From the NCBI GenBank assembly GCA_003635185.1, contig PYJA01000121.1, forward strand, positions 1-64,000: a stretch of 64,000 nucleotides of DNA, written 5' to 3'. How positions within the stretch are numbered: the first letter of the stretch is position 1; each line of letters starts with the position of its first letter. Positions 1,892 to 60,609 of the stretch are shown here, one piece after another. The notes below the pieces were generated by a model. That model did not search any database and was not told where the DNA came from. It was given only the letters and a program-made list of their open reading frames with translations. The DNA is from Candidatus Poribacteria bacterium (GTDB taxonomy: Bacteria > Poribacteria > WGA-4E > WGA-3G). Position numbers and translations under genes: made by a program.

Positions 1892-4800
1892 TTATGGAAG
1901 AGTATTAAATGCCTCAGAGTCGATAAGGCTTTTGATCGCGTTTGCGTCCACTTTTGTTGAGTCAACGCGATCGCGAAAATTTTGAATAGATGTGAACAAA
2001 CCTCCGCTATTTCTTTCTGTTAGGATAGAACCTATTGCATCATCACTAATGCCTTTGAAAGCAATAAACCCGAAACGGATATCGTTCCCGTCTACGATAA
2101 AGTTCTTTTCACTGGCGTTGATATCAAGCGGTAACAAGTTTATTTCTACATCCAAAAAGTCTGCGAGTCTCACACATTCAAATTGGTAACGTTTGATCTT
2201 TTCCTTATCCGCTGCCTCTCCCGTCATCATCGCCGCCATAAATTCATGGGGATAATGCGTTTTCAGGTATGCCATACGGTAGGCTAATAGAGCATAAGTG
2301 ACAGAGTGCGATTTGTTGAAAGCATATCTGCCAACCTGTTCAAGATAGTCGTATATTCCCTCTGCTTCTTTGGTGGAGAGACCTTTTTCAACGACACTAT
2401 TGATGAATTTCGGTCGTAGTCTTTCAAGCACGTCTGATTTCCTTTTTCCCATTGCATCACGGAGGATGTCTGCCTCACTAAGCGTGAACCCAGCAACATC
2501 ACATGCAATCTGCATCACCTGTTCCTGGTAGATACAGACACCGAAAGTGCTTTTGAGCGCATTTTCAAGTAAAGGATGGCTATATTCTATCGGTTGTCCC
2601 CCGTTTTTCCTATCAATGAACTGCTGCATCATACCGCTTTCAATAGGCCCCGGGCGGTAGAGTGCAGGAATTGCGGAGAAATCCTCAAAGTTATCCGCTT
2701 TAAGTTGCGCAACAACCGTATACATGCCGGAGGAGGTTTCCAGCTGGAATATGCCAGCAATCAGACCTCTACTGATGAGTGAATAGGTCTGTTTATCGTC
2801 AAATGGGATATCTTCAAGTGCGATCTTGCGGCCATGGTTTTCCTGAATCATATTGAGGCAGTCCGCAGTTTCTGAAAGACTTCGCACACCGAGCGTATCA
2901 AATTTAATGATGCCGACATCTTCAACCGTTTTTCCTTCAAACTGCGTTGCGATTTGTCCACGTCTATCCTTAAAAAGTGGAGCGTAATTGCTAAGCGGTC
3001 CGTTTGAAATGACAATAGCAGAAGCGTGGCAGGAGACATGCCGTTTCATACCTGCTACGGCTTTGCTGATTTCGATTAACTCTCTGTTTTCAGGAAGTTC
3101 TGCAAGTCTCTGAAATTCAGGCACTTGTTCCAAAGCATCATCAAGTGTAACGCCCAAATGAGGTGGAATAAGTTTTTCCAACTTTTGAATGTTATCAACG
3201 GGAATTTCAAGTGCGCGTCCAACATCTTTGATAGCAGTTTTTGCCCCTAACGTAGCAAAGGTAGCAACTTTACCGACAGAATCATGACCGTACTTTCTCA
3301 CAAGGTAATCAATCACATCGTCACGGGCATGATCGGCAAAATCTATATCAATATCCGGCGGATTCATTCTGTCAAGGTTTAAAAACCTTTCGAACAGACA
3401 TCCATGATCCATCGGATTGAAACTGATTACACCAAGCGCATAAAGCACGAGACTACTCGCAGCAGAACCGCGAGCAGAAAGTAAATAGCCCTGTTGGTTC
3501 GCGTAGTTGACGTAATCCGCTACAATCAGGAAATAGTTGGCGTAGCCGGTTTGTTGAATAATATCCAGTTCATATTCCAATCGCTTTTGAATCGATTCGG
3601 AGAGATGCCCTCCAATTTTTTGACGCAAACCTTCGTAGCACTGTTCTTTTAAATAACTGTCCTGTGTCTGTCCTTCCGGAATCTCAAAAATCGGCATTGC
3701 CCTTTTGTCGTAGTCCAAATTTAGATTACACCGATTGGCAATTTTAACTGTATTGATAATCGCTTCAGGTGGATAATCCTTCAGTGCTTCCCGCATTTCG
3801 TCAACATTCTTAAAATAGAAATGATTGTTAAATCTTATCCGTTCTGGATCGTTAACAGTCTTCTTTGTTTGGATACAGAGAAGAATGTCGTGCATTCGGT
3901 GGTCAGATTTTCGGAGGTAGTGACAATCATTTGTGCCGACGATGGGGAGATCGTACTCATTTGCGAATTCCACCATTACCGGATATGCCGCTAATTCCAT
4001 GTCAATATAGTGGTTTTGAAGTTCGACAAAGAGATTGTCCGGTCCCATGATGTCTCTCAATTCTAACAAATTTCGGACCGCTTCATCTCTTTGATTTGAA
4101 CAGATAAGCTTCGGTACTATCCCATTGATGCATCCTGTCAATGCTATTATACCATCATGATATTCACGTAGCATTTCCATGTTGATGCGCGGTTTTCTAT
4201 CGAAACCTTGCGTATACCCAAGTGATACTAATTCCAAAAGATTGTGGTAGCCTACAGCATCTTCTGCAAGCAGTGTAAGATGGGACGGTGAACATTGAGA
4301 ATTATCTTCTGTTTTTGCGTTTTCTATTTCAACATATACCTCACATCCGACAATGGGATTCACACCTGCAGCTTTTGCAGTATTGTAAAGTTCCCATGCA
4401 CCGAACATATTGCCGTGATCAGTGAGGGCAACAGCAGGCGAACTGTTTTCAATTGCCCACTGCACCATATCCGGAATCCGACAAGCACCATCCAGCAGGC
4501 TATATTCACTGTGATTGTGTAGATGAACAAATTCTGAGGAATTTGAAGGTGAAATGACACTGTCTTGTCCGATAGATGCCTCGTGCTCGCTGGAAGTAGT
4601 CGGTCGAGTCTGATCACTTTGTGAATCAAGTCCGCTTGCTATTACAGTCACCAACACTTCATCATTCGCTTCCAACTCATCCTTGTAGACTAATCCGAAG
4701 ATAGGTCGGGCATTTTCACATGTTTCGACAATTACTTTCATAGCTTGGTCCAATTCATGCATCGTGAAATTCGGTGGAGAAGCGATATTAACAAGCATCA

Positions 4801-6217
4801 CAGCATCTCCTATGATGCTGTTTTCTTCAAGCAAAGGTGAAGTAATTGCGTTTTCTGCAGCGATCTTTGCACGATTTTCACCTTCCGCTTTTCCGATACC
4901 CATTAGGACAGTCCCTTGGTCGCGCAACGTTTCCTGTATATCGTCAAAGTCAATGTTTATTTCGCCAGTTTTTACAAGTATTTCTGCAATTGCATTAACG
5001 CCTTGGACCAGGATTTCATCGCTTTTTTGATACGCTTCGGGCATTGATAATTCTTGGTCAACCAATTCCAGTATACGCTGATTCGGCACAACGATAACTG
5101 CATCCGACTGAGGTTGTAGACCGCCCTGCAGTTGCTGTAGTCCATATTCAGCTTTTTCAGCACGGTGCTCGCCTTCAGAATCGAACGGGCGTGTTACAAA
5201 GCAGACTGTTAATGCTCCGTCTTCTCGTGCAAGAGATGCAAGCACTGGAGCGACACAAGTACCCGTTCCACCTCCCATACCAGCGATAACAATAACCATC
5301 TTGGCATCTGAGACAATAGATCGGAGCGCATCTATACTTTCCGCAGCCGCTCTTTTTCCCAGTTCCAGACTCCCCTCCGTACTTTGTCCTTGAACGGTGT
5401 TAATGCCTATTTGCACATGTGTTGCACCGTTGCATGTGTTAAGTGTGTTCTCATCGGTATCAACAACACAGAATTCAATGTCTGTCTGGGCTTCTCCAAA
5501 ATCAATAACAGAGAATCCAATGTCTGTCTGGGCTTCTTCAATCATTCGTTTTATAACATTGCAACCCGCTTCACCGACTCCAATAACTTTAAATTTGGTT
5601 CGTAAGCTTTCAGATTTTTCCTGTTTCTGTGACATCGTTTTCCCCCTTGTAGGTTCTATCTCAAATTCTTGGCGTAAAAGGTGTCTTATTTCACTTAGCT
5701 TCGTCTTGACTGTGCCGATTGCTAAGTCGAGTTCTTCAGCAATTTCTTTTACATTCCACAATTCAAGATAGTACAATATTGCGACAGAACGCACCCTTTG
5801 TGGAAGGTTATGCACAGCTTCCCTTGCTTCTGATAGAAGTCTTGCATCTTGAAAACGTTGCTCTGCTTCTCTATCAATCTGCAAAGCTAAATCTTCGTAA
5901 CTCAGTATAATTTCACTGTGCCGATGCAAGTTAGAGGCATAGTATCTATTGCAAGCGGTGAAAGCAATTCGCCGCAACCATCCGCCAAAACTTTCTGCTT
6001 TTCGTAACCCGATTATGTTTTCCCAAACAGCCAACCAAACATCCATTAAAATCTCTTCTGCATCCCGTCTTTGTCTTGAATTTTCAACAACGATGTTCCA
6101 AATTCGTGGACTATAACGAGATACCAGTTCCGCGAAAGCTGATTCATCACGTGCTTGAACAAGCCGAACCAATTCTGCATCTGTTAAGTTGTTTGGGATG
6201 ACAAAATTGTAGTGCAT
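1892..6217 (-). CDS. ECF sigma factor - FtsZ-like GTPase - DnaE polymerase core triple fusion
   Basis: One uninterrupted 1441-codon frame. Residues 1-190 are an ECF sigma factor: region 2 around 17-85 and region 4 around 135-185 (LPQRVRSVAILYYLEL, then AIGTVKTKLSEIRHLL). Residues 195-530 are FtsZ-like, with GVGEAGCN, the tubulin signature AGMGGGTGTC at 312-321 (last Gly replaced by Cys), the T7 loop NIDFDD at 421-426, and MGIGKAEGENRA. The FtsZ C-terminal tail is missing. Residues 563-1441 are DnaE: PHP domain FVHLHNHSEYSLLDG at 563, palm PDIDIDF with D957 and D959, KFDTLG with D1107, YRPGPIESG, and FNKSHSVTYALLAYRMAYLK. It stops after the helix-hairpin-helix, without the clamp-binding motif, OB fold and tau-binding domain. 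An internal ATG at residue 195 has a good Shine-Dalgarno. Each domain is clear. Whether one polypeptide is made, and whether housekeeping ftsZ and dnaE exist elsewhere, is unknown. Confidence 0.88.
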   Translation of the reverse strand: MHYNFVIPNNLTDAELVRLVQARDESAFAELVSRYSPRIWNIVVENSRQRRDAEEILMDVWLAVWENIIGLRKAESFGGWLRRIAFTACNRYYASNLHRHSEIILSYEDLALQIDREAEQRFQDARLLSEAREAVHNLPQRVRSVAILYYLELWNVKEIAEELDLAIGTVKTKLSEIRHLLRQEFEIEPTRGKTMSQKQEKSESLRTKFKVIGVGEAGCNVIKRMIEEAQTDIGFSVIDFGEAQTDIEFCVVDTDENTLNTCNGATHVQIGINTVQGQSTEGSLELGKRAAAESIDALRSIVSDAKMVIVIAGMGGGTGTCVAPVLASLAREDGALTVCFVTRPFDSEGEHRAEKAEYGLQQLQGGLQPQSDAVIVVPNQRILELVDQELSMPEAYQKSDEILVQGVNAIAEILVKTGEINIDFDDIQETLRDQGTVLMGIGKAEGENRAKIAAENAITSPLLEENSIIGDAVMLVNIASPPNFTMHELDQAMKVIVETCENARPIFGLVYKDELEANDEVLVTVIASGLDSQSDQTRPTTSSEHEASIGQDSVISPSNSSEFVHLHNHSEYSLLDGACRIPDMVQWAIENSSPAVALTDHGNMFGAWELYNTAKAAGVNPIVGCEVYVEIENAKTEDNSQCSPSHLTLLAEDAVGYHNLLELVSLGYTQGFDRKPRINMEMLREYHDGIIALTGCINGIVPKLICSNQRDEAVRNLLELRDIMGPDNLFVELQNHYIDMELAAYPVMVEFANEYDLPIVGTNDCHYLRKSDHRMHDILLCIQTKKTVNDPERIRFNNHFYFKNVDEMREALKDYPPEAIINTVKIANRCNLNLDYDKRAMPIFEIPEGQTQDSYLKEQCYEGLRQKIGGHLSESIQKRLEYELDIIQQTGYANYFLIVADYVNYANQQGYLLSARGSAASSLVLYALGVISFNPMDHGCLFERFLNLDRMNPPDIDIDFADHARDDVIDYLVRKYGHDSVGKVATFATLGAKTAIKDVGRALEIPVDNIQKLEKLIPPHLGVTLDDALEQVPEFQRLAELPENRELIEISKAVAGMKRHVSCHASAIVISNGPLSNYAPLFKDRRGQIATQFEGKTVEDVGIIKFDTLGVRSLSETADCLNMIQENHGRKIALEDIPFDDKQTYSLISRGLIAGIFQLETSSGMYTVVAQLKADNFEDFSAIPALYRPGPIESGMMQQFIDRKNGGQPIEYSHPLLENALKSTFGVCIYQEQVMQIACDVAGFTLSEADILRDAMGKRKSDVLERLRPKFINSVVEKGLSTKEAEGIYDYLEQVGRYAFNKSHSVTYALLAYRMAYLKTHYPHEFMAAMMTGEAADKEKIKRYQFECVRLADFLDVEINLLPLDINASEKNFIVDGNDIRFGFIAFKGISDDAIGSILTERNSGGLFTSIQNFRDRVDSTKVDANAIKSLIDSEAFNTLP
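5458..5541 (-). repeat. 42-bp tandem duplication inside the FtsZ-like segment
   Basis: Two copies of a 42-bp unit (about 5458-5499 and 5500-5541) share the core CAATGTCTGTCTGGGCTTCT. They encode a repeated 14-residue block with EAQTDI followed by F-x-V-[IV]-D. The block sits between the first glycine loop and the second strand of the FtsZ fold, where normal FtsZ has a single copy. Confidence 0.85.
5633..5648 (-). promoter_or_regulatory. internal Shine-Dalgarno and ATG at the sigma/FtsZ junction
   Basis: On the minus strand AAGGGGG is followed by six bases and an in-frame ATG (residue 195, MSQKQEK). This is stronger than the signals of many annotated starts in the window. It falls exactly at the end of the sigma domain. 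It could give a separate FtsZ-DnaE product besides the full-length one. Confidence 0.6.
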
Positions 6218-6504
6218 AAGTAGATTCCCAAATAGATTTGCTTATAAAGAGGGGGAATTTTTGGGAAACGGTTTAAAAAATATGGAAAAATCGTGGTTGA
6301 GGTATTTATTATCGCAAAGAAATTGTCGAATTAGGTAGGAACAATCAGAACATAAATACTTAGACATTTTATATCTCCCAAAGAAATATAAAATAATGCA
6401 ATAAGTAGTTTTGGACTTGCAACAAAATTTTAAAACCGCCCTAAACATAGATGTAGACTACATTTTTCGCTTGTTTTTATTGTGAAAACAAGGGACAATT
6501 TAGA

Positions 6505-7300: not shown

Positions 7301-10300
7301 ATGAAAATTCGAAATTATATTATAGTCTATTTATTAGTTTTTTGGGGTTGCGTTTCATTCGGTTATGCAGCAGAAGGTGGTAAAAAATTAGGGTTGTCGG
7401 AGGCTGCAATCCAAATTCGGGATGAGATATCTATCCGCAACATTCGGAAAGATATCGCACGTTTATCAAGTCTGGAAAGCCGCGTGACTGGTTATCCGCA
7501 AGCAGCAAACGGCAGTAAATATATTTTTGACCGTTTTGTTGATATGGGGTTGAAGAATGTTGAAAGTCGTGAATTTACTGTCACAGTTCCCGTTGATCAC
7601 GGTAGTAGTGCTATTGATATCCTATCCGATGATGGCAACGTGCTACACACATTTCCACTCAAACCGTTGTGGCCAAACCTTGTCCGAACATCTCTGCTTG
7701 CTGATGGTGTAAAACATACCGTTGAAGCTGGCGAAACCCTTGAAGAAATTGCAGAAAACTATGCGGTTTCCCTAACAGCCATTGCTGAAAACCCACACAA
7801 CCAATATTTACCCACTCCTCTTGTGGAGGGGAACACGGTTTTCGTCCCAACTGGCGGTCTTACCGGGCCCCTATTTTACGGAGACGATGCCCAGCTTTCA
7901 GATTTCAACGGAAGTAAAGTCGGCGGCTTTTGGTACAGACTCCAAGAAGGTGATACACTCGCTTCACTGGCGAGACGTTATCGCGTTACAAAAGCGAGTA
8001 TAACCGATGATGTACTCAACGGACATCTACAGAAAGCCTCCGATGGCATTGATAACAATGAAGATGGCGTTATTGATGAATACGGTGAAATTCCGCTTTT
8101 ATCGGAAATTCTCGGATGGGTAACAGATGGCATTGACAATAATGCTGATGGTTGGACTGATGAAATTCCCGGCGATGCGACAGATGGCATTGATAACAAC
8201 AAAGACGGTCAAATTGACGAAACCGGTGAATTCATCGCGGCAAGCGAATCTGATATTTTTATTCCAAAAGGTGCAATCGTTCTTGCCGAATTTAACTCTG
8301 GTACCCGATGGATTAACGCGGCGATGCTTGGTGCATCCGCAGTTATTTTTATAGAACCGGAAACAACAATTCGCGGTGAAGCAGAAAACAAATTCCTCAC
8401 TGTGCCAGCAAACATTCCCCGATTTTGGATTTCTAATACAGATGCTGCTCAATTAAAAGGATTCCTTGATACAGGTGAAGAGGTCAATGTTCGCTTGCGC
8501 GGCAAAATGACTTGGGAACGGCGCGTCGGTCAAAACATTCGTGGCTTCTTAGAAGGTGGCGATCCTGTCCTACGCGATGAATTGGTCGTCCTTACCGCGT
8601 ACTACGATTCTATGTCTGTTGTTCCAGCAATCGCTCCCGGTGCTGACCCAACCTGTGGGATTGCTGTCCTCATGGAACTTGCACGTTTGTTCGGACAACC
8701 AGAATACCGTCCCGGTCGTTCAGTTCTATTTGTTGCCGTTGATGCACATTTCCAAGGCTTAGCTGGGATGCGTGCGTTTATGGAAGGTATTGGACAAGAT
8801 ATTGTTGGTTCAGCAACCGATTCACCAGGAACACCCACTTTGCACGGATTGAGGCGCGGATTATCTAATGATATTATCGAATTTGAGGAATTAGGACGCA
8901 AACTGTTGCTTTCCATTGATCGAAGTATTTTGGTTGATTTAGACGCAGATTTCTACCACGGCGTTCACGGTGTAAAGGAAGACCTGAAATCACTTGCTAC
9001 AACGTTGACGGGGCTTTCTACAACACGGTCCCAAATTGATTGGTTACACAGAGCGCAACGCGATTTCTCAGAACGCCAGAAAAAACAGGTAGATCGCAAC
9101 CGCAAACGCGAAAAACAGGGATTCACAGAGGAAGAAAAATCGAGACTAAATGCCAACCTTGTCCGCTTCGAAAAAGAAGCATTGCAAACTACGCATTTTC
9201 TCCGCCAGATCGTTGAACGACTTGCACAGATTCAGAAATCTGCCATGAAAACGAGTAAGGATTCCCAGCGAGAACTCATTGAAACCATTGCTTTGCCCAT
9301 TGCACGGTTGGACACATGGGCAGTGGATAGACTCATGCGAGAGCTTGACTCAGGTGAAATAGCTGATCAATACGGCACGCATCCGAATGCATCATATCTG
9401 TTCCCTGTCAAGAACGGATCCGATTATGAAGTGCCAACACCTGACGATCTGCCGCCAGAATTGTCCGCTGACATTGAACAGTTGAACAAGACCCTTGCCA
9501 ATTGGGAGATGAGCGACTCACGGAAGTTTGCTTTAATGTGGACACCTGATAAGATCCTTGATCGCCACTTAGATTTGCCGACTCTCAGAAAAGCGCGCGC
9601 TGCGCGAAAAACCCTTGCAAATACTACTGAATCCAAGGAAGATGCGATATTACGAGAACGGGGCCTTTTGGAAAAAATAAAGGAAAATCTCAAGGACACC
9701 GCTTCCATTGAAAGTCAAATTAAAGATGCCATTACAAAATTGAGCAGTGATCGTGAGCATGATCTTCCAGATGAAGTATTAAGGCAATATCTAACGGAAG
9801 AATCACAAGAACGGATAAACAGAATTGATGATCAACTTCGGCAACGTTTGACCGAAGCAGTCTCAGCGTCTGTTGCAGGTGAAGGCGGAGACGGTTCGTC
9901 CGCATCCATCCTAATTGAAGATTTGGCACGCGATAAACAAGGTATTTTTGAGATTGCGCTGCGAAATGCCCGTTTAGAACAAGCGCGCATCCAGTATCTT
10001 CTTGATTTCCATGAAACTCTTACCCGTGAGTTTCTTGATGAAGAGTTATTAATTCTGAACAGTTACTTATCGGGTGAGGAGGTCGAACAAGTAAAAGAGG
10101 CACGCAAACATGTTGCAGCGTATCTGGTTGAGGCTGAAATCTTGCAGGCAGTCAAACAGAACGCAGCTTCGGATGTGATCGCCCTTGAAAATCTAATCAA
10201 GCAACTCCCATCGCTAACAAGGGATATAGACGCACAGACAAAGGTGCTTCTCCGTGATAATATGCTCACCTTGAGGAATGCGCGATTCCGAAACATTCAA

Positions 10301-13300
10301 AGCAGGGTTGAGAAGATGTCACGCATAAGCGAGATAGAATATAATCGCAAACTCACACAGATTGAAGCCGCAGTCGCGCTACAAGACCTTTTCAATCGGT
10401 ATTATACATCGCTTTTCTGTAGCATAGATCTTTCCTCTCAATCGAATCAATTCGGCGTATTTAACAAAGGTTGGTTTTACGATCAACAACCGGAATTTGT
10501 GCTGCGGCGTGAGTTCGCGAGTATCGGCAATAAACTTGCAGCCTATGCTGCGGATGCCGATTTCGGAGTGCGTGTTAGAAAATTATGGCGGGCAACGGAT
10601 GATCAAATTCGCCAAGCAGTGATGGCACGTCAATGGTCAGTAGCAAGCCAAATCTCCGATAAAGCTGACCTTGAAGGGAAAACGCTTGAAACACTTCTCA
10701 GCGCACATTATGGGAAGCTCACAGGTTTAGGTGGGGTGAGCCGACTCATGAGGATGCAGTTTGAACAGTGGCGAAACCGAGGTGAACCGTCTGAGGATAT
10801 GCTCAAAGATATGGACTATATCCGCAAGGAAGTTGAGCGGTTTATCCGAAACGATGTACGTAGCGCAAAGAAAAACCGAAAAAACAGCATCCGCATGCGC
10901 GAACAGTTAGATGCCATGCTCAGACTCCGACACGAAGACCCCGACACATTCACAGAAGATGAGATAGAGGATATCAAAACATTAATTTCAATTGTCGGAC
11001 TGGGCGGCGGTTCCAACTTTGTCAACGCAATCTCTGCAAGTGGTGGCAAAACTTGGAAAACCTATATTCCGGGGAAAATCGCTTTTGACAGTGAAGTTGC
11101 AACGCTTGTAGGCAAAACAGGTATTGCCTTTGCAACGATTGAAGATGCGCGCGTTCTCACCGACACACCACTTGACACGATTGATCGTGTTGACCTACGT
11201 GAAGGTGGTAATCTACATCAACAAGCAAAAACATTAGCATCTCTACTGATACAGGCACTACGGGACCCACAGATGCCCACTGCAGCACGCGTTGGAAACT
11301 TCTACTGTAACCTTTTCGGTGATGTGGTTGAATTTGATGCACGCGAATCTGCATTACCAAATAAACCCGTGCCATACCCGATTGTAACGCTTCGTCGTAG
11401 ACATAAAACGATGATGGGGGTCCGCGGTGACCTCTTTGCCATGGGGGATAATAAAGGCAATTTTGAAGTTGCGGGCTTGGCAATGGAAGGCAGGGCAACT
11501 CGCAGGCTTGGTGGTGCACAGGAAGTTGAGGCATACATCCTTGACCCCGATTCTGGGGATATTGTCTACGCTCCCGATTTGGGAAATTACGGTGCTAAAT
11601 TGCTACCGAATAAAGTGCCGATTAACACACGGCGACGCGGATGTCGAGTTGTTACCTTCCCGTGTGTATCCACAACTATCTATGATTTGGTTGACCAACG
11701 CTATCTCCGCACCTTGCGCGAATTAGAGGTATATGATGCGCTGTCCGATAGCCCACCTGAGAAATTCGGTGTGTCTAAACCGTGGCAACAGGAAGGTGTT
11801 TCTGCCGCTGAACCTATCGCACTTGTCTATAGCGAACCGCAAAGCCGTATAAAAATCGGAATGGCGTACGGGCAAATCGGTAAACGCCTACTCCTGATTA
11901 AAGCAACCAAAAGCGGTATGAAAAACCCAACGCTTTACACTGGCGAAGGGTTTGTCGTGCGAGAAAACGGCAGTATCCGTCTTACCCCTTATGTGGTTGT
12001 ACGTGATATGTGGTGGCTTGATGAAAACCGATCGCGTCTTTACAAACGGTTCGGTATTTCAAGCGATCGACTTGATAAATTGCATCAATTTGCCAATGAG
12101 TATCTTAATCGTGCAGAAACGGCGCTTTTTCAAAACGATTATCAACAAGCACTCAAGTTGGCTCGCGCTGCATGGGGATACGAATCACGCGCGTATCCAG
12201 ATGTTAAAAGAACAGGCAACGATGTCGTTAACGGTATTATGTTCTATCTTGCGCTTCTGATGCCGTTTGCTTATTTTATGGAACGACTTATATTTGGTTT
12301 CCCGAATATTCATAAACAGATTATAGCCACTTTCGGTATTTTTCTCCTCGTCTTTTACTTCTTAAGTCAAGTGCATCCTGCGTTCCAAATAACAACAACA
12401 CCCATAATTATATTAATAGCCTTCGTTGTGCTTGCGTTGACGGTGCTTGTCATCAGTATTATCGTTAGGAAATTTGAGGAACAACTTGAAAAGATTCGTC
12501 AACAAGGTAATAAGGTGTATAAGGCAGATGTCGGTAGACTGAGCGCAAGTGCTGCAGCATTTAGTCTCGGTATATCCAACATGCGAAAACGGAAAGGGCG
12601 CACCATTCTGACCTGCGCAACACTTGTTATCCTTACGTTCACTGTTATTTCGTTTACATCAGTACGGACATTTATGCGTCCGAACCGAACCAGTTTGCCA
12701 CAGGTTACACCGCGTTATACTGGCTTACTCATCCGAGATCAGTATTGGCGCCCGCTTGAAGAACCTGTCCTTAACTCAATTCTGAACGACATGCAGAAGA
12801 CACAAGTTACTGTAGACGATTTAGAACGACTTCTGGAACAGAAAAACCTACTCCTGGCTAAGCGAGGACAAGCACCGCTGGATGTCCCTGCAGCAATAAC
12901 AGAATTACAGGAAAATGGGTTTATCACAAACATTGACGAGGAACCAGTTCTTGCCGTTCGAAATGTTGTTGCACCGCGCGCATGGTACCAATCTTCTGGA
13001 ACAGGCGACCAATCTTTTGTTCAATTGACGCGAAGTCCAAACCCGCAAGACCCTGTACCTCCGACACACCCACTCACAGGTGAAGCGTTGCGTTTCGCCG
13101 CAAACATGCTTGTCGGCATGAGTGAGACAGAACCCGCAGTCACGGGTATTGATCGTTATCTCCAATACGGAAAATGGTTTAACCGCGCCGATGCTGCCAA
13201 TTGGCCAACTGAGTGGCCTTATGCTATTGTGCTTCCCAAGGGAATGGCAGATCTCCTCAAACTAACCGAAAGTGATATGGGGAAAGCCACAATTTCTGTA

Positions 13301-14587
13301 TACGGTGCTGATTTTACCGTCGTCGGTGTTTTGGGAATAGGATTCAAGGATTTGACCGATAACGATGGCGAAGAAATGACACCTGTTGACTATCAATTAA
13401 TGCAACAGCAACAAAGTCGCGGTGGTACAGGTGATGAAACGCTTGAGGGGGAATTACAAAAATATCTCCATCTCACCCCAGACAGCATTGCCGTTTTACC
13501 TTATGAAGTTGTGATGAACCAAGGTGGAACGCTGAGAAGTGTCGCAGTTAACATGGAACCTCAAGAAGACGATCCGAAACTATTAGGCGCAATTGATAAA
13601 CTTGATCTCATCATGGCTCCACTGATGAACCGCATTGCGCTTGACTTCTTTGTCGGTCGCGACAAAGATACCTACCTTTATAGCAGTATCGGTATGACAA
13701 GTTTTAGCGGGATGGGTAACCTATTCGTGCCAATCCTGATTGCTGCGTTGATTGTTTTGAATACGATGCTCGGTGCGGTTTATGAACGTGTGCGTGAAAT
13801 CAGTATCTACAGTTCTGTGGGACTTGCTCCTATCCATATCGCTTTCCTTTTCCTTGCCGAAGCGTGCGTATATGCGATTGTTGGGGCTGTTTTAGGGTAC
13901 CTGATGGGACAGGTGATCGCAACAACGTTGGTGCATTTCGGTTGGCTTGCTGGCTTAACGCTCAACTATTCTTCAATGTCTACTGTTGTAGCAACGGTTA
14001 TTGTGATGATTGTGGTACTGCTCAGCACGCTGTACCCTGCTATTAAAGCCTCGCGCATGGCAGTGCCAGATATTGAACGGAAATGGAAATTGCCTGAACC
14101 TGAAGGCGATGTGTGGCATTTCAATCTGCCTTTTACCGTCTTGGCGGAAGAAGCACTCGGTTTGAACGTCTTTATGCGCGATTATTTTGATGCACATGCT
14201 GATGAATCTGCCAGCGATTTCTACACGGATAATGTTACTTTCAGCACAAAACCCGAAGAGGATTCTTACGAAATAGGGATGATGGTCTGGTTAGCACCTT
14301 ACGATTTGGGCGTGAGTCAATCTATCCAGTTTATCACCTCGCCCGTTGGCGGAGAAGAGGAAGACTTATACAAAATCACGTTAGATGTGAACCGCGAAAG
14401 TGGTGAGATAGCTTCTTGGAAACGGGTTAATCGTCGTTTCCTCAATCTGTTGCGAAAGCAGCTGCTGATATGGCGAACTTTCAGTGTTGATGTTCGCTCA
14501 GAATTCCATGAACGTGGCAGAACCGAAAACACGGATACGGAGGAAGGCACTGCACGACTGGACCCCGTCGTAGCACCAGCGGACTAA
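7301..14587 (+). CDS. giant exported LysM / degenerate M28 peptidase-like / FtsX-like permease protein
   Basis: 2428 residues starting with a signal peptide (hydrophobic IIVYLLVFWGCVSFGYA). A peptidase M28-type N-terminal part begins near residue 30. It is interrupted by two LysM motifs (about 136-182 and 210-250) and three DGIDNNxDG repeats (near 248, 276 and 294), which resemble calcium-binding loops. The M28 core begins near 430 with VVLTAYYDS and GADPTCGIAVLMELARL. The usual AHYDS and ADDNxSG metal ligands are altered and the downstream Glu pair is missing, so it is probably not a peptidase. A charged helical stretch of roughly 900 residues follows. Three membrane helices lie near 1644-1725, then an FtsX/MacB-like permease part with helices near 1769, 2140-2215 and 2228-2255 (YERVREISIYSSVGL). 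No ABC ATPase gene is adjacent. It could be a cell-envelope sensor or an ABC permease. Domain calls are firm; function is unknown. Confidence 0.85.
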   Translation: MKIRNYIIVYLLVFWGCVSFGYAAEGGKKLGLSEAAIQIRDEISIRNIRKDIARLSSLESRVTGYPQAANGSKYIFDRFVDMGLKNVESREFTVTVPVDHGSSAIDILSDDGNVLHTFPLKPLWPNLVRTSLLADGVKHTVEAGETLEEIAENYAVSLTAIAENPHNQYLPTPLVEGNTVFVPTGGLTGPLFYGDDAQLSDFNGSKVGGFWYRLQEGDTLASLARRYRVTKASITDDVLNGHLQKASDGIDNNEDGVIDEYGEIPLLSEILGWVTDGIDNNADGWTDEIPGDATDGIDNNKDGQIDETGEFIAASESDIFIPKGAIVLAEFNSGTRWINAAMLGASAVIFIEPETTIRGEAENKFLTVPANIPRFWISNTDAAQLKGFLDTGEEVNVRLRGKMTWERRVGQNIRGFLEGGDPVLRDELVVLTAYYDSMSVVPAIAPGADPTCGIAVLMELARLFGQPEYRPGRSVLFVAVDAHFQGLAGMRAFMEGIGQDIVGSATDSPGTPTLHGLRRGLSNDIIEFEELGRKLLLSIDRSILVDLDADFYHGVHGVKEDLKSLATTLTGLSTTRSQIDWLHRAQRDFSERQKKQVDRNRKREKQGFTEEEKSRLNANLVRFEKEALQTTHFLRQIVERLAQIQKSAMKTSKDSQRELIETIALPIARLDTWAVDRLMRELDSGEIADQYGTHPNASYLFPVKNGSDYEVPTPDDLPPELSADIEQLNKTLANWEMSDSRKFALMWTPDKILDRHLDLPTLRKARAARKTLANTTESKEDAILRERGLLEKIKENLKDTASIESQIKDAITKLSSDREHDLPDEVLRQYLTEESQERINRIDDQLRQRLTEAVSASVAGEGGDGSSASILIEDLARDKQGIFEIALRNARLEQARIQYLLDFHETLTREFLDEELLILNSYLSGEEVEQVKEARKHVAAYLVEAEILQAVKQNAASDVIALENLIKQLPSLTRDIDAQTKVLLRDNMLTLRNARFRNIQSRVEKMSRISEIEYNRKLTQIEAAVALQDLFNRYYTSLFCSIDLSSQSNQFGVFNKGWFYDQQPEFVLRREFASIGNKLAAYAADADFGVRVRKLWRATDDQIRQAVMARQWSVASQISDKADLEGKTLETLLSAHYGKLTGLGGVSRLMRMQFEQWRNRGEPSEDMLKDMDYIRKEVERFIRNDVRSAKKNRKNSIRMREQLDAMLRLRHEDPDTFTEDEIEDIKTLISIVGLGGGSNFVNAISASGGKTWKTYIPGKIAFDSEVATLVGKTGIAFATIEDARVLTDTPLDTIDRVDLREGGNLHQQAKTLASLLIQALRDPQMPTAARVGNFYCNLFGDVVEFDARESALPNKPVPYPIVTLRRRHKTMMGVRGDLFAMGDNKGNFEVAGLAMEGRATRRLGGAQEVEAYILDPDSGDIVYAPDLGNYGAKLLPNKVPINTRRRGCRVVTFPCVSTTIYDLVDQRYLRTLRELEVYDALSDSPPEKFGVSKPWQQEGVSAAEPIALVYSEPQSRIKIGMAYGQIGKRLLLIKATKSGMKNPTLYTGEGFVVRENGSIRLTPYVVVRDMWWLDENRSRLYKRFGISSDRLDKLHQFANEYLNRAETALFQNDYQQALKLARAAWGYESRAYPDVKRTGNDVVNGIMFYLALLMPFAYFMERLIFGFPNIHKQIIATFGIFLLVFYFLSQVHPAFQITTTPIIILIAFVVLALTVLVISIIVRKFEEQLEKIRQQGNKVYKADVGRLSASAAAFSLGISNMRKRKGRTILTCATLVILTFTVISFTSVRTFMRPNRTSLPQVTPRYTGLLIRDQYWRPLEEPVLNSILNDMQKTQVTVDDLERLLEQKNLLLAKRGQAPLDVPAAITELQENGFITNIDEEPVLAVRNVVAPRAWYQSSGTGDQSFVQLTRSPNPQDPVPPTHPLTGEALRFAANMLVGMSETEPAVTGIDRYLQYGKWFNRADAANWPTEWPYAIVLPKGMADLLKLTESDMGKATISVYGADFTVVGVLGIGFKDLTDNDGEEMTPVDYQLMQQQQSRGGTGDETLEGELQKYLHLTPDSIAVLPYEVVMNQGGTLRSVAVNMEPQEDDPKLLGAIDKLDLIMAPLMNRIALDFFVGRDKDTYLYSSIGMTSFSGMGNLFVPILIAALIVLNTMLGAVYERVREISIYSSVGLAPIHIAFLFLAEACVYAIVGAVLGYLMGQVIATTLVHFGWLAGLTLNYSSMSTVVATVIVMIVVLLSTLYPAIKASRMAVPDIERKWKLPEPEGDVWHFNLPFTVLAEEALGLNVFMRDYFDAHADESASDFYTDNVTFSTKPEEDSYEIGMMVWLAPYDLGVSQSIQFITSPVGGEEEDLYKITLDVNRESGEIASWKRVNRRFLNLLRKQLLIWRTFSVDVRSEFHERGRTENTDTEEGTARLDPVVAPAD

Positions 14588-14600
14588 AGGACAGGAAATT

Positions 14601-16802
14601 ATGATTGAACAAGATGTGCGATATCAGATAGATCGTTCTTTGGAAGCGAACGGTTGGATACTTGATGCTCATGATACCCGACAAAATGTTTTTTTTGAAA
14701 ACGCGGTTAAAAGTCGGTTGCCGCAGCTGAATCTCAAGAAACTGGGACAGAAAAAGCCTGACTACACACTGTTTGATGGTGTTCAGCCGATAGCCGTGAT
14801 AGAAGCAAAAAAATCTAATATCGTGAATCTTGATGATGCACTCAATCAGGCGAGCGATTATGCAGAGTGCATGGACGTGGACATCGTATTTGCTTGCAAC
14901 GGTTTAAGTCTTAAATCTCGGCATTTGAAGAAATCTGAACCACTGTTCTTTAACGGTGTTGAGCTCAATGAACTGCCTTCACTGGATTTATTGAGAAAAT
15001 ATTACATTGATAAAACCAACGAAGTATTCACTGTATCCAAGGAGGTCATTAAATCCAGAGACGAATTGATCAGTCTATTTTCAGAACTCAATGAGGATTT
15101 CAGGGCAGTCGGGATTCGCGCTGGTATTGAGCGATTCAGCGAATTCGCCAATATCCTTTTTCTAAAACTGCTAAGTGAAAAAGGTGAGGACGACATTTGG
15201 GACACTTTGATGAGACTCCCCGAAAATGATATTGTGCAGTATTTGAATTCAGTCATCGTTAACCGACTTAAAGAGAGTTACGGTGGAGAAGTTATTTCAC
15301 CAGTAACTACCGATAGCACCGCTATAATTAAAAAGATTGTGCAAAAACTCAATCCATTAAATCTTACCGACATTGACGAAGATATTAAGGGATCAGCATT
15401 TGAGTATTTTATGGAGAAGACAACCACAGCAACAAACGACTTAGGTGAATATTTTACGCCGCGACACATCGTCAAATTCATGGTTAGACTCCTCAATCCA
15501 AAGTTCGGTGAAACCGTGTTTGATCCATTTTGTGGAACTGGTGGGTTTCTTACGGAGGCCTTCAAACATATTAGTCAACAAGCCAAACTGTCAAGAATGA
15601 CTTCAGAGAAACTACAAAATAAAACGGTTTTTGGTAGTGAGATCACAACCACGGCACGAATTGCCAAAATGAACATGATATTATTTGGTGACGGTCATTC
15701 TGGTGTATCCCAAAGAGACAGTCTCTTGACAAATACTACCGGTGAGTATAACAATGTTCTTTCAAATATACCTTTTTCTCTTGACCTTTCCACAGATATA
15801 TTGGATAGGTCCAAAGGACATAGTGCAAAAGATGCTGACGAAGCCTGTGTACTTAAGTGTTTTAACAGTCTAAAAGTCGGAGGTTCAATGGCAATTGTTG
15901 TACCAGAAGGGTTACTTGTAAACAAAGTTCATCGCAAATTGCTGCGGTTCATTTTAGGCAACTCTTGTGTCAGAATGCTGGTTAGGCTTCCGCGCGGTTG
16001 CTTTGCTCCTTATACTGATGCTAAAACGGGTATCATTTATTTGACTGACAAGGGAGTTGGTCAGACAGACTGGTTTTACCGAGTGACAGTTGACAACGAT
16101 GGTTTTGACAGTAAGAGAAATCCAAAAATAGGTATAAACGATTTGGATAATGTGCTGTTTTTCCATACCCCGTCTGATATACCTGTGGAAAACTTGCCAG
16201 AAGGTCTTGAAATTGGCATAGTCCAAGTGAAAAATGTTCAAAGCGATAGAGGTTTCAGTTTACATGAGGATTGGAAAGTTGGCGACCACATGGATTACGT
16301 GAATCTTGAAGATGTCGCCTTTTTGAAAAACGGCACATCAATTACAGAAGCTACTACCACAGAGGGCAACATTCCGGTAATAGCAGGCGGCAGAGGCACT
16401 GTTCCATATACACATGGTGAGTCTAACTACCCTGGAAACGTGTTTACTGTTAGCAAATCAGGAGCGTATTCAGGTTATGTGTGGTGGCATAACGATCCAA
16501 TATGGGCTTCCGATTCTATCGTCGTCCAAAGCAAAGATGAATCAAAGTATTTGACACGCTACCTTTATATGTGTCTGAAATCTATGCAAGACCCACTTTA
16601 TCGTCGTCAGCAAGGCACAGGGCAACCTCATATTTATATTGAGCATATCAGAGATTTTCCTATACCCGTTATATCTATTGACGAACAAAAAGCGAAAATC
16701 AAACCTATTGAAGATATAGACGCAAAATTGAGAGCAGTCAAAGCGGAGTTATCAGTACGCGAATCTGATGTAAACGAGTTCATTAAATCATGCTACGAAT
16801 AA
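14601..16802 (+). CDS. single-chain restriction-modification enzyme (HsdR-N nuclease, HsdM, HsdS)
   Basis: 733 residues. The N-terminus resembles the type I HsdR nuclease module: KPDYTLFDG and AVIEAKK at about 52-72 give the PD-(D/E)XK pattern. The HsdM part has YFMEKTTTATNDLGEYFTPR and motif I FDPFCGTGGFL near 307. Motif IV reads SNIPF near 388 instead of the usual NPPF. From about 555 comes an HsdS-like target-recognition domain ending in a helical EQKAKIKPIEDIDAKLRAVK tail. There is no helicase, so this is closer to a type IIG enzyme than to type I. It starts 13 bases after the giant gene. It would cut and methylate a sequence-specific site. The substituted motif IV residue is worth noting but also occurs in some HsdM relatives. 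Confidence 0.82.
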   Translation: MIEQDVRYQIDRSLEANGWILDAHDTRQNVFFENAVKSRLPQLNLKKLGQKKPDYTLFDGVQPIAVIEAKKSNIVNLDDALNQASDYAECMDVDIVFACNGLSLKSRHLKKSEPLFFNGVELNELPSLDLLRKYYIDKTNEVFTVSKEVIKSRDELISLFSELNEDFRAVGIRAGIERFSEFANILFLKLLSEKGEDDIWDTLMRLPENDIVQYLNSVIVNRLKESYGGEVISPVTTDSTAIIKKIVQKLNPLNLTDIDEDIKGSAFEYFMEKTTTATNDLGEYFTPRHIVKFMVRLLNPKFGETVFDPFCGTGGFLTEAFKHISQQAKLSRMTSEKLQNKTVFGSEITTTARIAKMNMILFGDGHSGVSQRDSLLTNTTGEYNNVLSNIPFSLDLSTDILDRSKGHSAKDADEACVLKCFNSLKVGGSMAIVVPEGLLVNKVHRKLLRFILGNSCVRMLVRLPRGCFAPYTDAKTGIIYLTDKGVGQTDWFYRVTVDNDGFDSKRNPKIGINDLDNVLFFHTPSDIPVENLPEGLEIGIVQVKNVQSDRGFSLHEDWKVGDHMDYVNLEDVAFLKNGTSITEATTTEGNIPVIAGGRGTVPYTHGESNYPGNVFTVSKSGAYSGYVWWHNDPIWASDSIVVQSKDESKYLTRYLYMCLKSMQDPLYRRQQGTGQPHIYIEHIRDFPIPVISIDEQKAKIKPIEDIDAKLRAVKAELSVRESDVNEFIKSCYE

Positions 16803-24175: not shown

Positions 24176-24465
24176 TATTAACCCAAGTTGCTACCTATAA
24201 GTTTTTAGACATGGAAACACCGTCTTTAATGAAAATATGCTGATAATTAGCCAATATTTTCGTAGCGCAAACTGTTAGTTTGCGCACTTGCAGCCACAAT
24301 CTAAATGAAGTTTAAGTTATTAATTCGGTAATGTGGCGAGGTTAGGAAACCTCGCCAGCAGAGATGTACACTTGCTGCTGGCGAGGTTTCCTAACCTCGC
24401 TAAATTACCCAATTTATTTTTAATCTTCATACAGATTGTGCTACAAGGTGGCAACTTAGGTTATA
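24176..24465. repeat. outer inverted-repeat element hosting a second element
   Basis: The left end TATTAACCCAAGTTGCTACC pairs with the right end, the inverse of TATAACCTAAGTTGCCACCT (24446-24465). Inside, a palindrome with CACAATCT and AGATTGTG arms is split by the nested element at 24305-24430. No reading frame. It fills the gap between the divergent operons. Confidence 0.65.
24305..24430. repeat. ATGAAG-type nested element, copy 1
   Basis: 126 bp with imperfect inverted ends of about 28 bp (ATGAAGTTTAAGTTATTAAT against ATGAAGATTAAAAATAAATT) and a central stem GGCGAGGTTAGGAAACCTCG. A nearly identical copy lies at 60373-60499. Both copies sit at the centre of an unrelated palindrome. Confidence 0.85.
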
Positions 24466-60346: not shown

Positions 60347-60609
60347 TGGGACACTTCTGTACCGCAACCTGCATGAAGTTTAAGTTATTAATTCGGTAAT
60401 GTGGCGAGGTTAGGAAACCTCGCCAGCAGAGATGTACACTTGCTGCTGGCGAGATTTCCTAATCTCGCTAAATTACCCAATTTATTTTTTTATCTTCATC
60501 CAGATTGCGGTTTGTGGCACAAACTGGAAGTTTATGCTACCCCTTCTATTGTCCATTATGTTCCATAATAGGTTATCAAAGTTCCCCAATAATTTCAAAG
60601 TTCACTATA
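60326..60609. repeat. TATAGT-type MITE-like element, copy 5, interrupted by a second element
   Basis: Ends TATAGTAAAACGGACAATTA and the inverse of TATAGTGAACTTTGAAA as in the 6863-7018 copy. The central palindrome is split by the 60373-60499 element. It begins inside the 3' end of the preceding gene and supplies its stop codon. Confidence 0.85.
60373..60499. repeat. ATGAAG-type nested element, copy 2
   Basis: 127 bp, almost identical to 24305-24430; visible differences include GGCGAGATTTCCTAATCTCG in place of GGCGAGGTTTCCTAACCTCG, a compensated pair that keeps the stem. It sits in the middle of CCGCAACCTG / CAGATTGCGG. Confidence 0.88.

Follow-up and report, generated by a model that had tools for sequence, protein, structure and literature searches.

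A window of 64,000 nucleotides from a Candidatus Poribacteria bacterium (NCBI GenBank assembly GCA_003635185.1, contig PYJA01000121.1, positions 1 to 64,000 of the forward strand) contains a single unbroken reading frame of 1441 codons, from ATG to TAA at positions 6217-1892 of the minus strand, in which three parts are joined. From the N- to the C-terminus these are a sigma factor of the extracytoplasmic function (ECF) type, the tubulin-like division protein FtsZ, and the replicative polymerase DnaE, which ends after its HHH motif. It is near certain that this architecture is real. As for its role, the leading reading, put forward tentatively, is that of a self-regulating ECF sigma factor tethered to the division or replication machinery, with FtsZ and DnaE as captured modules. 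In bacteria, gene expression has to keep step with the copying of the chromosome and with division, and the links known to us are indirect. The parts of the frame were located in the window as follows.

1892..6217, minus strand: the sigma-FtsZ-DnaE fusion reading frame, defined as one frame with orthologues in relatives.
5933..6127, minus strand: ECF sigma region 2 (Pfam Sigma70_r2, residues 31-95, E 1.1e-5).
5684..5827, minus strand: ECF sigma region 4 (Pfam Sigma70_r4_2, residues 131-178, E 1.5e-7).
5060..5590, minus strand: FtsZ/tubulin GTPase domain (Pfam Tubulin/FtsZ GTPase, residues 210-386, E 7e-37).
5453..5536, minus strand: 42-bp tandem duplication inside FtsZ (14 amino acids), a low-confidence loop in the structure model.
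4625..4915, minus strand: FtsZ C-terminal domain (Pfam FtsZ_C, residues 435-531, E 5e-18).
4541..4612, minus strand: variable FtsZ/DnaE linker without a start codon for DnaE (from alignment, substitution rates and structure model).
4010..4525, minus strand: DnaE PHP domain with its presumed metal ligands kept (Pfam PHP, residues 565-736, E 7e-52).
2888..3658, minus strand: DnaE polymerase core (Pfam DNA_pol3_alpha, residues 854-1110, E 7e-85).
2381..2863, minus strand: DnaE finger domain (Pfam, residues 1119-1279, E 1e-54).
1898..2143, minus strand: DnaE HHH motif, where the frame ends (Pfam HHH_6, residues 1359-1440, E 1e-19).

These domain assignments, with E-values between 3e-5 and 7e-85 overall, are far beyond chance. 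An initial annotation, made from the sequence alone, had listed an uninterrupted 1441-codon frame with sigma regions 2 and 4, the FtsZ signature GGGTGT, the T7 loop NIDFDD, a PHP domain and the palm motifs PDIDIDF and KFD, and all of these were recovered by Pfam and by a motif check. The signature occupies residues 315-320 and the T7 loop residues 421-426, just N-terminal of the FtsZ C-terminal domain; PDIDIDF starts at residue 954 (3338-3358, minus strand) and KFD comprises residues 1105-1107, with its aspartate codon at 2897-2899 of the minus strand. The sigma part is of the ECF type, since regions r2 and r4_2 score above the Pfam gathering thresholds and other sigma regions are not listed, and it passes TIGR02937 with 63.2 bits versus a cut-off of 42.9. 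The FtsZ part stays below the equivalog cut-off of TIGR00065 (278.5 versus 295.2 bits). The annotated DnaE core stood as far as the PHP and palm residues are concerned, but the polymerase is incomplete, covering positions 3-884 of the 1146-position DnaE model. The tandem duplication inside FtsZ occurs in the window genome and in one relative (G004) only, among 39 aligned rows.

The same frame recurs in relatives among the sponge-associated Poribacteria. In what follows G000 is the genome of the window (82% complete) and other G and L handles are other genomes and loci searched; some of the named-relative records described below belong to the same genomes as G handles. In a search of 59 genomes, the window's included, the fusion of G004 was 92% identical and those of three further genomes of the genus 80-83% identical. 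Searching with the sigma-FtsZ part revealed a triple-length frame (at least 1349 codons) in 29 of 58 family genomes and a frame of 554-630 codons, too short for DnaE, in 12; the other full-length sigma-FtsZ matches were partial, frameshifted or shorter. The DnaE part was confirmed by sequence in 25 genomes, among which G010 and G025 run off contig ends and G067 is frameshifted; seven of the 29 triple-length genomes (G059, G060, G061, G068, G071, G075, and G076) were judged by frame length only. A shorter paralogue of about 400 codons, consisting of sigma and the GTPase half of FtsZ, is found in at least 44 of the 58. In a search across the phylum (84 genomes, 26 of them outside the family, with at most 17 candidates scored each) no fusion was found outside the family at E 1e-85 or better, and the single extra-family match was a standalone FtsZ.

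A search with the sigma part, in which the best 80 of 113 matches were retained, found 78 named loci. Their records come from different projects and all bear the title Candidatus or uncultured Poribacteria. Thirty-two of them encode sigma with the FtsZ GTPase half, 19 sigma with FtsZ and DnaE, 15 sigma with a WD40-like domain, 10 sigma with FtsZ including its C-terminal domain, and one each sigma with DnaE and sigma with a short domain without assignment. Records titled "chromosome: 1" are included, and the copies in such records share the same junctions. One triple fusion (L135 from G073, minus strand) reads on, adding a C-terminal extension that matches no Pfam family, to a total of 1758 codons.

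The search of related genomes proposed with the initial annotation thus found the architecture again in Candidatus Poribacteria assemblies from independent projects, so that a genuine fusion joining three central machineries is upheld, and the related loci that were read hold some sigma fusion instead of three separate genes. Because the triple frame recurs in genomes from different projects, with the same junctions, an assembly chimera was ruled out. The wider explanation by an assembly or binning chimera or by a decaying pseudogene could point to the DnaE part, which many relatives have in truncated form and G067 with a frameshift, and to the upstream synteny, which differs in the window genome. 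It is nevertheless extremely improbable, and at the level of the architecture already refuted, in view of the 92% identical orthologue in G004, the whole-chromosome-titled records with the same junctions, the low ratio of nonsynonymous to synonymous substitutions (dN/dS) in every domain, and the DnaE tree.

In this tree, calculated from 24 fused, 25 standalone, 4 second-copy and 2 outgroup DnaEs by a quick method with a midpoint root, all fused copies lie on one side of a single branch (support of 97 in the Shimodaira-Hasegawa-like approximate likelihood ratio test) and are split by genus. A single fusion event before the two genera parted, followed by inheritance, would fit these data best. 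The dN/dS values by the Nei-Gojobori method were 0.08-0.18 for DnaE in 14 triple-fusion pairs, and 0.14-0.39 for FtsZ and 0.04-0.18 for sigma in 19 pairs. For the FtsZ/DnaE linker, which is 19-92% identical between triple-fusion pairs, the ratio exceeded 1 in 3 of 14 pairs, ranged from 0.12 to 0.67 in 8 and was not estimable in 3, values which come from 26 codons only and are saturated where dS exceeds about 1.4. For 13 of 13 relatives with wide flanks, the same ABC-permease gene (named by eye) stands upstream of the triple gene, separated from it by no more than one small open reading frame (ORF) on the opposite strand, and the shorter sigma-FtsZ forms occupy the same permease locus in 9 of 9.

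The fused DnaE is 67-71% identical to the best standalone DnaE of family genomes among the matches listed, and its third-position identity to two standalone copies is 0.38-0.60 (two windows with almost no aligned codons excluded). A recent fusion of the genome's own dnaE was ruled out by these third positions and by the separation of fused and standalone DnaEs in the tree. The dS between G000 and G004 rises towards the 3' end. Because the fused DnaEs are far from the standalone ones in both respects, exchange between fusion alleles is a better explanation of this pattern than conversion with standalone dnaE. Over its final 80 codons (1361-1440; window 1898-2137) the window gene has a nucleotide identity of 0.75-0.76 to each of four other fused alleles. 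One of these four is that of G004, to which the other three are 0.86-0.88 alike; these distances likewise suggest allele exchange.

Another conserved property is a second possible start of translation at the junction between sigma and FtsZ, which is made up of two elements.

5642..5648, minus strand: internal Shine-Dalgarno-like sequence AAGGGGG (duplex energy -10.5), kept in relatives.
5633..5635, minus strand: in-frame ATG at codon 195, a conserved junction start which would begin a sigma-free FtsZ-DnaE.

The duplex with the 16S tail at codon 195 amounts to -10.5 kcal/mol, and none of the 32 other in-frame ATGs is as strong; the start of sigma itself reaches -4.2 kcal/mol. In relatives an ATG or GTG is kept at this junction with a purine-rich ribosome site upstream, the bases of which are conserved while the encoded residues vary (RGKT, EGVR, RRNT, KENT, RSKS). 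Among in-frame ATGs the junction start ranked first in 33 of 39 genes, a set partly overlapping the named loci. Among the 78 named loci the junction Shine-Dalgarno sequence had -7 kcal/mol or better in at least 68 and the junction start was the strongest in-frame ATG in at least 62, both lower bounds as the automatic pick gave no junction in L308 and an earlier codon in some rows (e.g., L243, L291). L068 was misplaced or missed in both tables of junction starts, and L025-L027 and L031 were not found in the residue-comparison table. As an in-frame ribosome site and start codon are kept at the junction, a second product, a sigma-free FtsZ-DnaE, is likely. At the FtsZ/DnaE junction no start codon was found in the alignment, therefore DnaE would be made only as a fusion.

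The partners of the sigma factor are exchangeable: FtsZ, an FtsZ half, DnaE, the sliding clamp DnaN (captured twice), PurC, and WD40 were observed, and most of those found in place of FtsZ-DnaE belong to the division or replication apparatus (FtsZ, DnaE, DnaN). G011 carries sigma and DnaE without FtsZ, with the palm sequence PDINIDF and a long branch inside the fused DnaE group. Nine DnaE-less forms end in what by alignment is an apparent remnant of the DnaE start, so that DnaE seems to have been lost repeatedly. Sigma joined to DnaN is present in eight of the 30 genomes searched with the sigma part, one of these genes having an internal deletion, and three of the eight stand at the same permease locus. 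All three DnaN domains (DNA_pol3_beta 1-3) were recognised by Pfam in the sigma-DnaN tested, L150. The sequence AAGGAGG precedes the DnaN ATG in seven of seven genes of this first type (two of the seven being identical), and four of these seven have lost the older internal ATG. Among 12 genomes searched, a different ECF sigma factor was found fused to another DnaN in three (G034, G027, and G072), at the following positions.

L218:5036-6781, L219:2388-4133 and L220:1283-2680, plus strand: second-group sigma-DnaN, with a different ECF sigma group.

The two groups of fused DnaN form separate, well-supported clades, from which it follows by sequence comparison that DnaN was captured independently by two sigma groups. 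In G070 (L187, minus strand, 4868-3360) sigma is joined to PurC in a gene adjoining a sigma-FtsZ gene, and this fused PurC is the only PF01259 match in the genome, which is 84% complete.

Both fused modules lack defined parts. FtsZ is without the C-terminal DIPAFLR peptide present in the standalone FtsZ of G000, and DnaE ends before QMNLF or QMSLF, which we take to be the clamp-binding motif and which occurs in four standalone copies, and lacks everything after it. The fusion thus appears to have lost the parts by which housekeeping FtsZ and DnaE are attached to their machines. With the roles that we assign to the catalytic and ligand residues, most of these are kept: PHP residues resembling metal ligands, the first palm aspartate and the KFD aspartate are invariant in 15 of 15 rows, and the second palm aspartate is kept in 14 of 15. 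The GGTG signature of FtsZ is found in all 38 rows covering the region, and the T7-loop aspartate in 17 of 18 triple fusions, 4 of 9 DnaE-less sigma-FtsZ forms, and none of 11 half forms, in which the region is absent. Because GGTG persists while the T7 aspartate is lost in the shorter forms, docking may outlive catalysis in the FtsZ part. A structural model of sigma-FtsZ had a mean predicted local distance difference test score (pLDDT) of 74 and a predicted template modelling score (pTM) of 0.57; compared with FtsZ structures it gave TM-scores by target of 0.83-0.95 in the 50 rows listed. Its low-confidence linkers, residues 188-204 and 531-560, look as would be expected for a flexible tether.

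The same losses can be read as those of a cell-cycle brake, in which a self-amplifying sigma switch would serve to poison the Z-ring and the replisome with large amounts of defective FtsZ and DnaE (or DnaN). The effector would be the product of the internal start. This start is conserved and strong, an FtsZ without DIPAFLR and a DnaE without clamp motif and later parts are dominant-interfering designs, and FtsZ halves without T7 loop would cap filaments. A brake is rather unlikely, however, as the catalytic residues are mostly intact in the triple fusions, the PurC and WD40 partners do not fit, and the sigma-FtsZ junction is free of stop codons in the listed rows that span it, a continuity which a mere promoter-provider does not need.

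The initial annotation had also proposed to look for separate housekeeping copies in the same genome. An ftsZ was found there, but no dnaE; both dnaE and dnaN were looked for in the 82% complete genome of the window without being found, which is probably due to an assembly gap. The dnaE of G004 sits in a stretch of about 8 kb that is absent from the G000 assembly, the flanking matches lying on different contigs. In relatives standalone DnaE and FtsZ were found among the matches listed, and standalone DnaN in 11 of 12 genomes.

Upstream of the fusion gene a promoter-like sequence was recognised.

6245..6279, minus strand: promoter-like motif TTTTTAAACC-N18-CTCTTTA, putatively for autoregulation, which stops 27 bases short of the start codon.

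The first box, TTTTTAAACC, is present upstream of 37 of 37 sigma-clade genes listed, the second box varying in some; the listing omits L006, L009, and L014, which have other sigma groups, and L037, L038, L065, and L068, with incomplete N-terminus. Exact matches to the whole motif numbered 16 in eight genomes, 1 to 3 in each, compared to 0 control matches, and 13 of the 16 are directly before sigma-clade genes; the single exact match of G000 is the one at the fusion gene. When up to one mismatch was allowed with a spacer of 18 in five genomes, 14 of 16 matches were directly before sigma-clade genes (G000 3/3, G004 5/5, G009 2/2, G023 2/3, and G034 2/3), and the remaining ones were a copy 164 bp upstream of such a site in G023 and one before a permease gene in G034. 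Up to two mismatches yielded 29 matches in these genomes at the same spacer. Because the 13 with two mismatches equal the 13 control matches, no wider regulon is claimed. We infer that the sigma factor autoregulates its own gene, as the promoter-like motif occurs mainly before the sigma clade's own genes. The copy in G023 (L155:8778-8812), also one of the 16 exact matches, is a second motif that stands 164 bp ahead of the promoter of sigma-DnaN. It is accompanied by a degenerate sigma start and is likely the remnant of an older sigma gene. In L226 and L228 (G034) and in L232 (G023) the motif with one or two mismatches precedes genes of MacB/FtsX-type permeases (named by eye), which are possible members of a regulon of the motif.

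This arrangement also allows another explanation, namely gene capture by a duplicating cassette made up of the sigma gene, its promoter and a 3' ribosome site. By in-frame recombination it would place other genes under the autoregulated promoter, the covalent link being incidental and the partners keeping their ordinary functions. It would account for the diversity of partners, among them PurC (the fused copy is the sole match to PF01259 in its 84% complete genome), for the occurrence of the same promoter and an internal ribosome site in the sigma-WD40 kin, and for the degenerate copy of promoter and start that precedes sigma-DnaN in G023. Most linker comparisons give a dN/dS below 1, so that the open linker may be under ordinary constraint. 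On the other hand, the fused FtsZ and DnaE duplicate housekeeping copies and are without the machine-contact parts, and the frame stays open through a linker only 19-92% identical. Incidental capture is considered unlikely.

According to the reading of a sigma factor tethered to the division or replication machinery, sigma would drive its own operon, from which two products, sigma-FtsZ-DnaE and FtsZ-DnaE, would be made. The FtsZ part would dock sigma on FtsZ filaments, and the DnaE part, without clamp and tau contacts, would dock on primer-template or replication intermediates, so that the amount of sigma free for RNA polymerase would follow the state of division and replication, with the internal product balancing the loop. 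The initial annotation had proposed a device tying gene expression to a polymerising GTPase; the fusion itself stood, and the coupling is the leading hypothesis. More generally, and somewhat more speculatively, these genes may form a new class of machine-tethered sigma factors in Poribacteria, in which an autoregulated ECF sigma would be covalently built into divisome, replicase or clamp, with modules swapped in evolution and an internal start supplying the partner without sigma, and would couple initiation of transcription directly to division and replication.

Several findings weigh against such a coupling. Sigma-FtsZ forms too short for DnaE in 12 of the 58 family genomes mean that DnaE is not essential to the device, the WD40 fusions (15 of 78 loci) and the PurC fusion (one genome) fall outside the replication and division theme, and the internal start may be a sign that it is mainly the sigma-free partner that acts. 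Both DxD aspartates are kept in 23 of 25 inspected fused DnaEs, the misses being L134, which is G011, and L139, which is G069. In the T1 loop of FtsZ a conserved glycine is replaced by glutamate, aspartate or asparagine in the window genome, in G004 and in the g2 genomes, a change which may weaken nucleotide binding, and G004 reads SGGTGT for GGGTGT. The placing of sigma relative to FtsZ in the model is unreliable at this pTM of 0.57, and the DnaE model, with a mean pLDDT of 49.5, was too poor for use. Two of the exact motif matches are not at sigma genes: in G080 the motif precedes a transposase-like gene, and in G079 the match, with a spacer of 19, is before an unrelated ORF.

At its locus the window is an exception, as the upstream neighbour of the triple gene is a divergent gene for 2428 amino acids instead of the permease. 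This neighbour (7301-14587, plus strand) has LysM, peptidase M28 and FtsX-type permease domains and partial similarity to the CARF-LolE TM model. It is followed at 14601-16802 (plus strand) by a gene for a single 733-amino acid protein with HsdR N-terminal-like, N6-methylase and type I specificity domains. Dispersed repeats of about 60-175 bp in the window (24268-24442, 60365-60538, and ~1746-1807) occur in both orientations in about 30 contigs of the window genome.

The restriction-modification-like gene at 14601-16802 speaks for yet another explanation, an anti-phage decoy or sensor, where phage inhibitors of FtsZ, DnaE, DnaN or sigma would bind the duplicate and release or activate sigma. 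The main partners are all classical phage targets, which counts for it as well. Against this stand the absence of any match of the fusion among PADLOC families (0) and the conserved synteny with metabolic- or transport-looking genes (named by eye), and we consider a decoy or sensor quite improbable. The suggestion of the initial annotation that the fusion itself is possibly phage-related was not borne out: no relative of the sigma part was found in viral contigs, none of 36 matching phage records covers 80% of sigma-FtsZ, and the gene has been passed on at a chromosomal locus that keeps its synteny.

If the reading of a tethered sigma factor is true, it would amount to a direct physical link of transcription initiation with division and replication in cellular bacteria, and parts of the replisome and divisome would be recruitable as regulatory modules. 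With different modules attached to a common sigma factor, the genes also offer a natural series for studying how fused domains evolve.

Compared to bacterial FtsZ (TIGR00065), the fused part has the same fold, GGGTGT signature and T7 loop, but it is under the cut-off, lacks the C-terminal anchoring peptide and is fused at both ends. Like the alpha subunit DnaE of DNA polymerase III, the fused DnaE has PHP, a palm with three aspartates, fingers and HHH, but it stops at position 884 of 1146, without clamp motif and later parts. Regulatory extensions of ECF factors are well established, among them the WD40 domain of ECF57, according to the ECF review PMC8999054. The fusion resembles these as a two-domain ECF factor (regions 2 and 4) with an in-frame C-terminal module, and WD40 relatives exist within its own sigma clade. 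It differs in that the extension is a polymerising GTPase with a DNA polymerase core (or a clamp), i.e., parts of essential machinery, with an internal start. In a check of terms, FtsZ, DnaN, polymerase III and sliding clamp were not found in PMC8999054, nor FtsZ, DnaN and sliding clamp in PMC8103513, and literature searches by titles and abstracts, with subscription papers and preprints outside their coverage, found no published description of such sigma fusions. What is known is the ECF sigma with a C-terminal extension, whereas for the type of extension, its exchangeability and the internal start no counterpart was found. The other system to be compared is late transcription of phage T4, where, according to PMC7892883, the clamp gp45 is linked to a promoter-recognition factor (gp55, sigma-like, and gp33), the clamp can activate the sigma-like factor, and engineered clamp-activator fusions, cited there, work. 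The window's gene, with FtsZ-DnaE and neither clamp nor clamp motif, does not have this linkage of sigma and clamp; it is found in the sister sigma-DnaN fusions only. The T4 connection is made by a clamp-binding motif carried on a linker, in contrast to the single chain of sigma-DnaN, which would act as a covalent version of the T4 arrangement and, if this is true, would be the one-chain counterpart of clamp-activated transcription.

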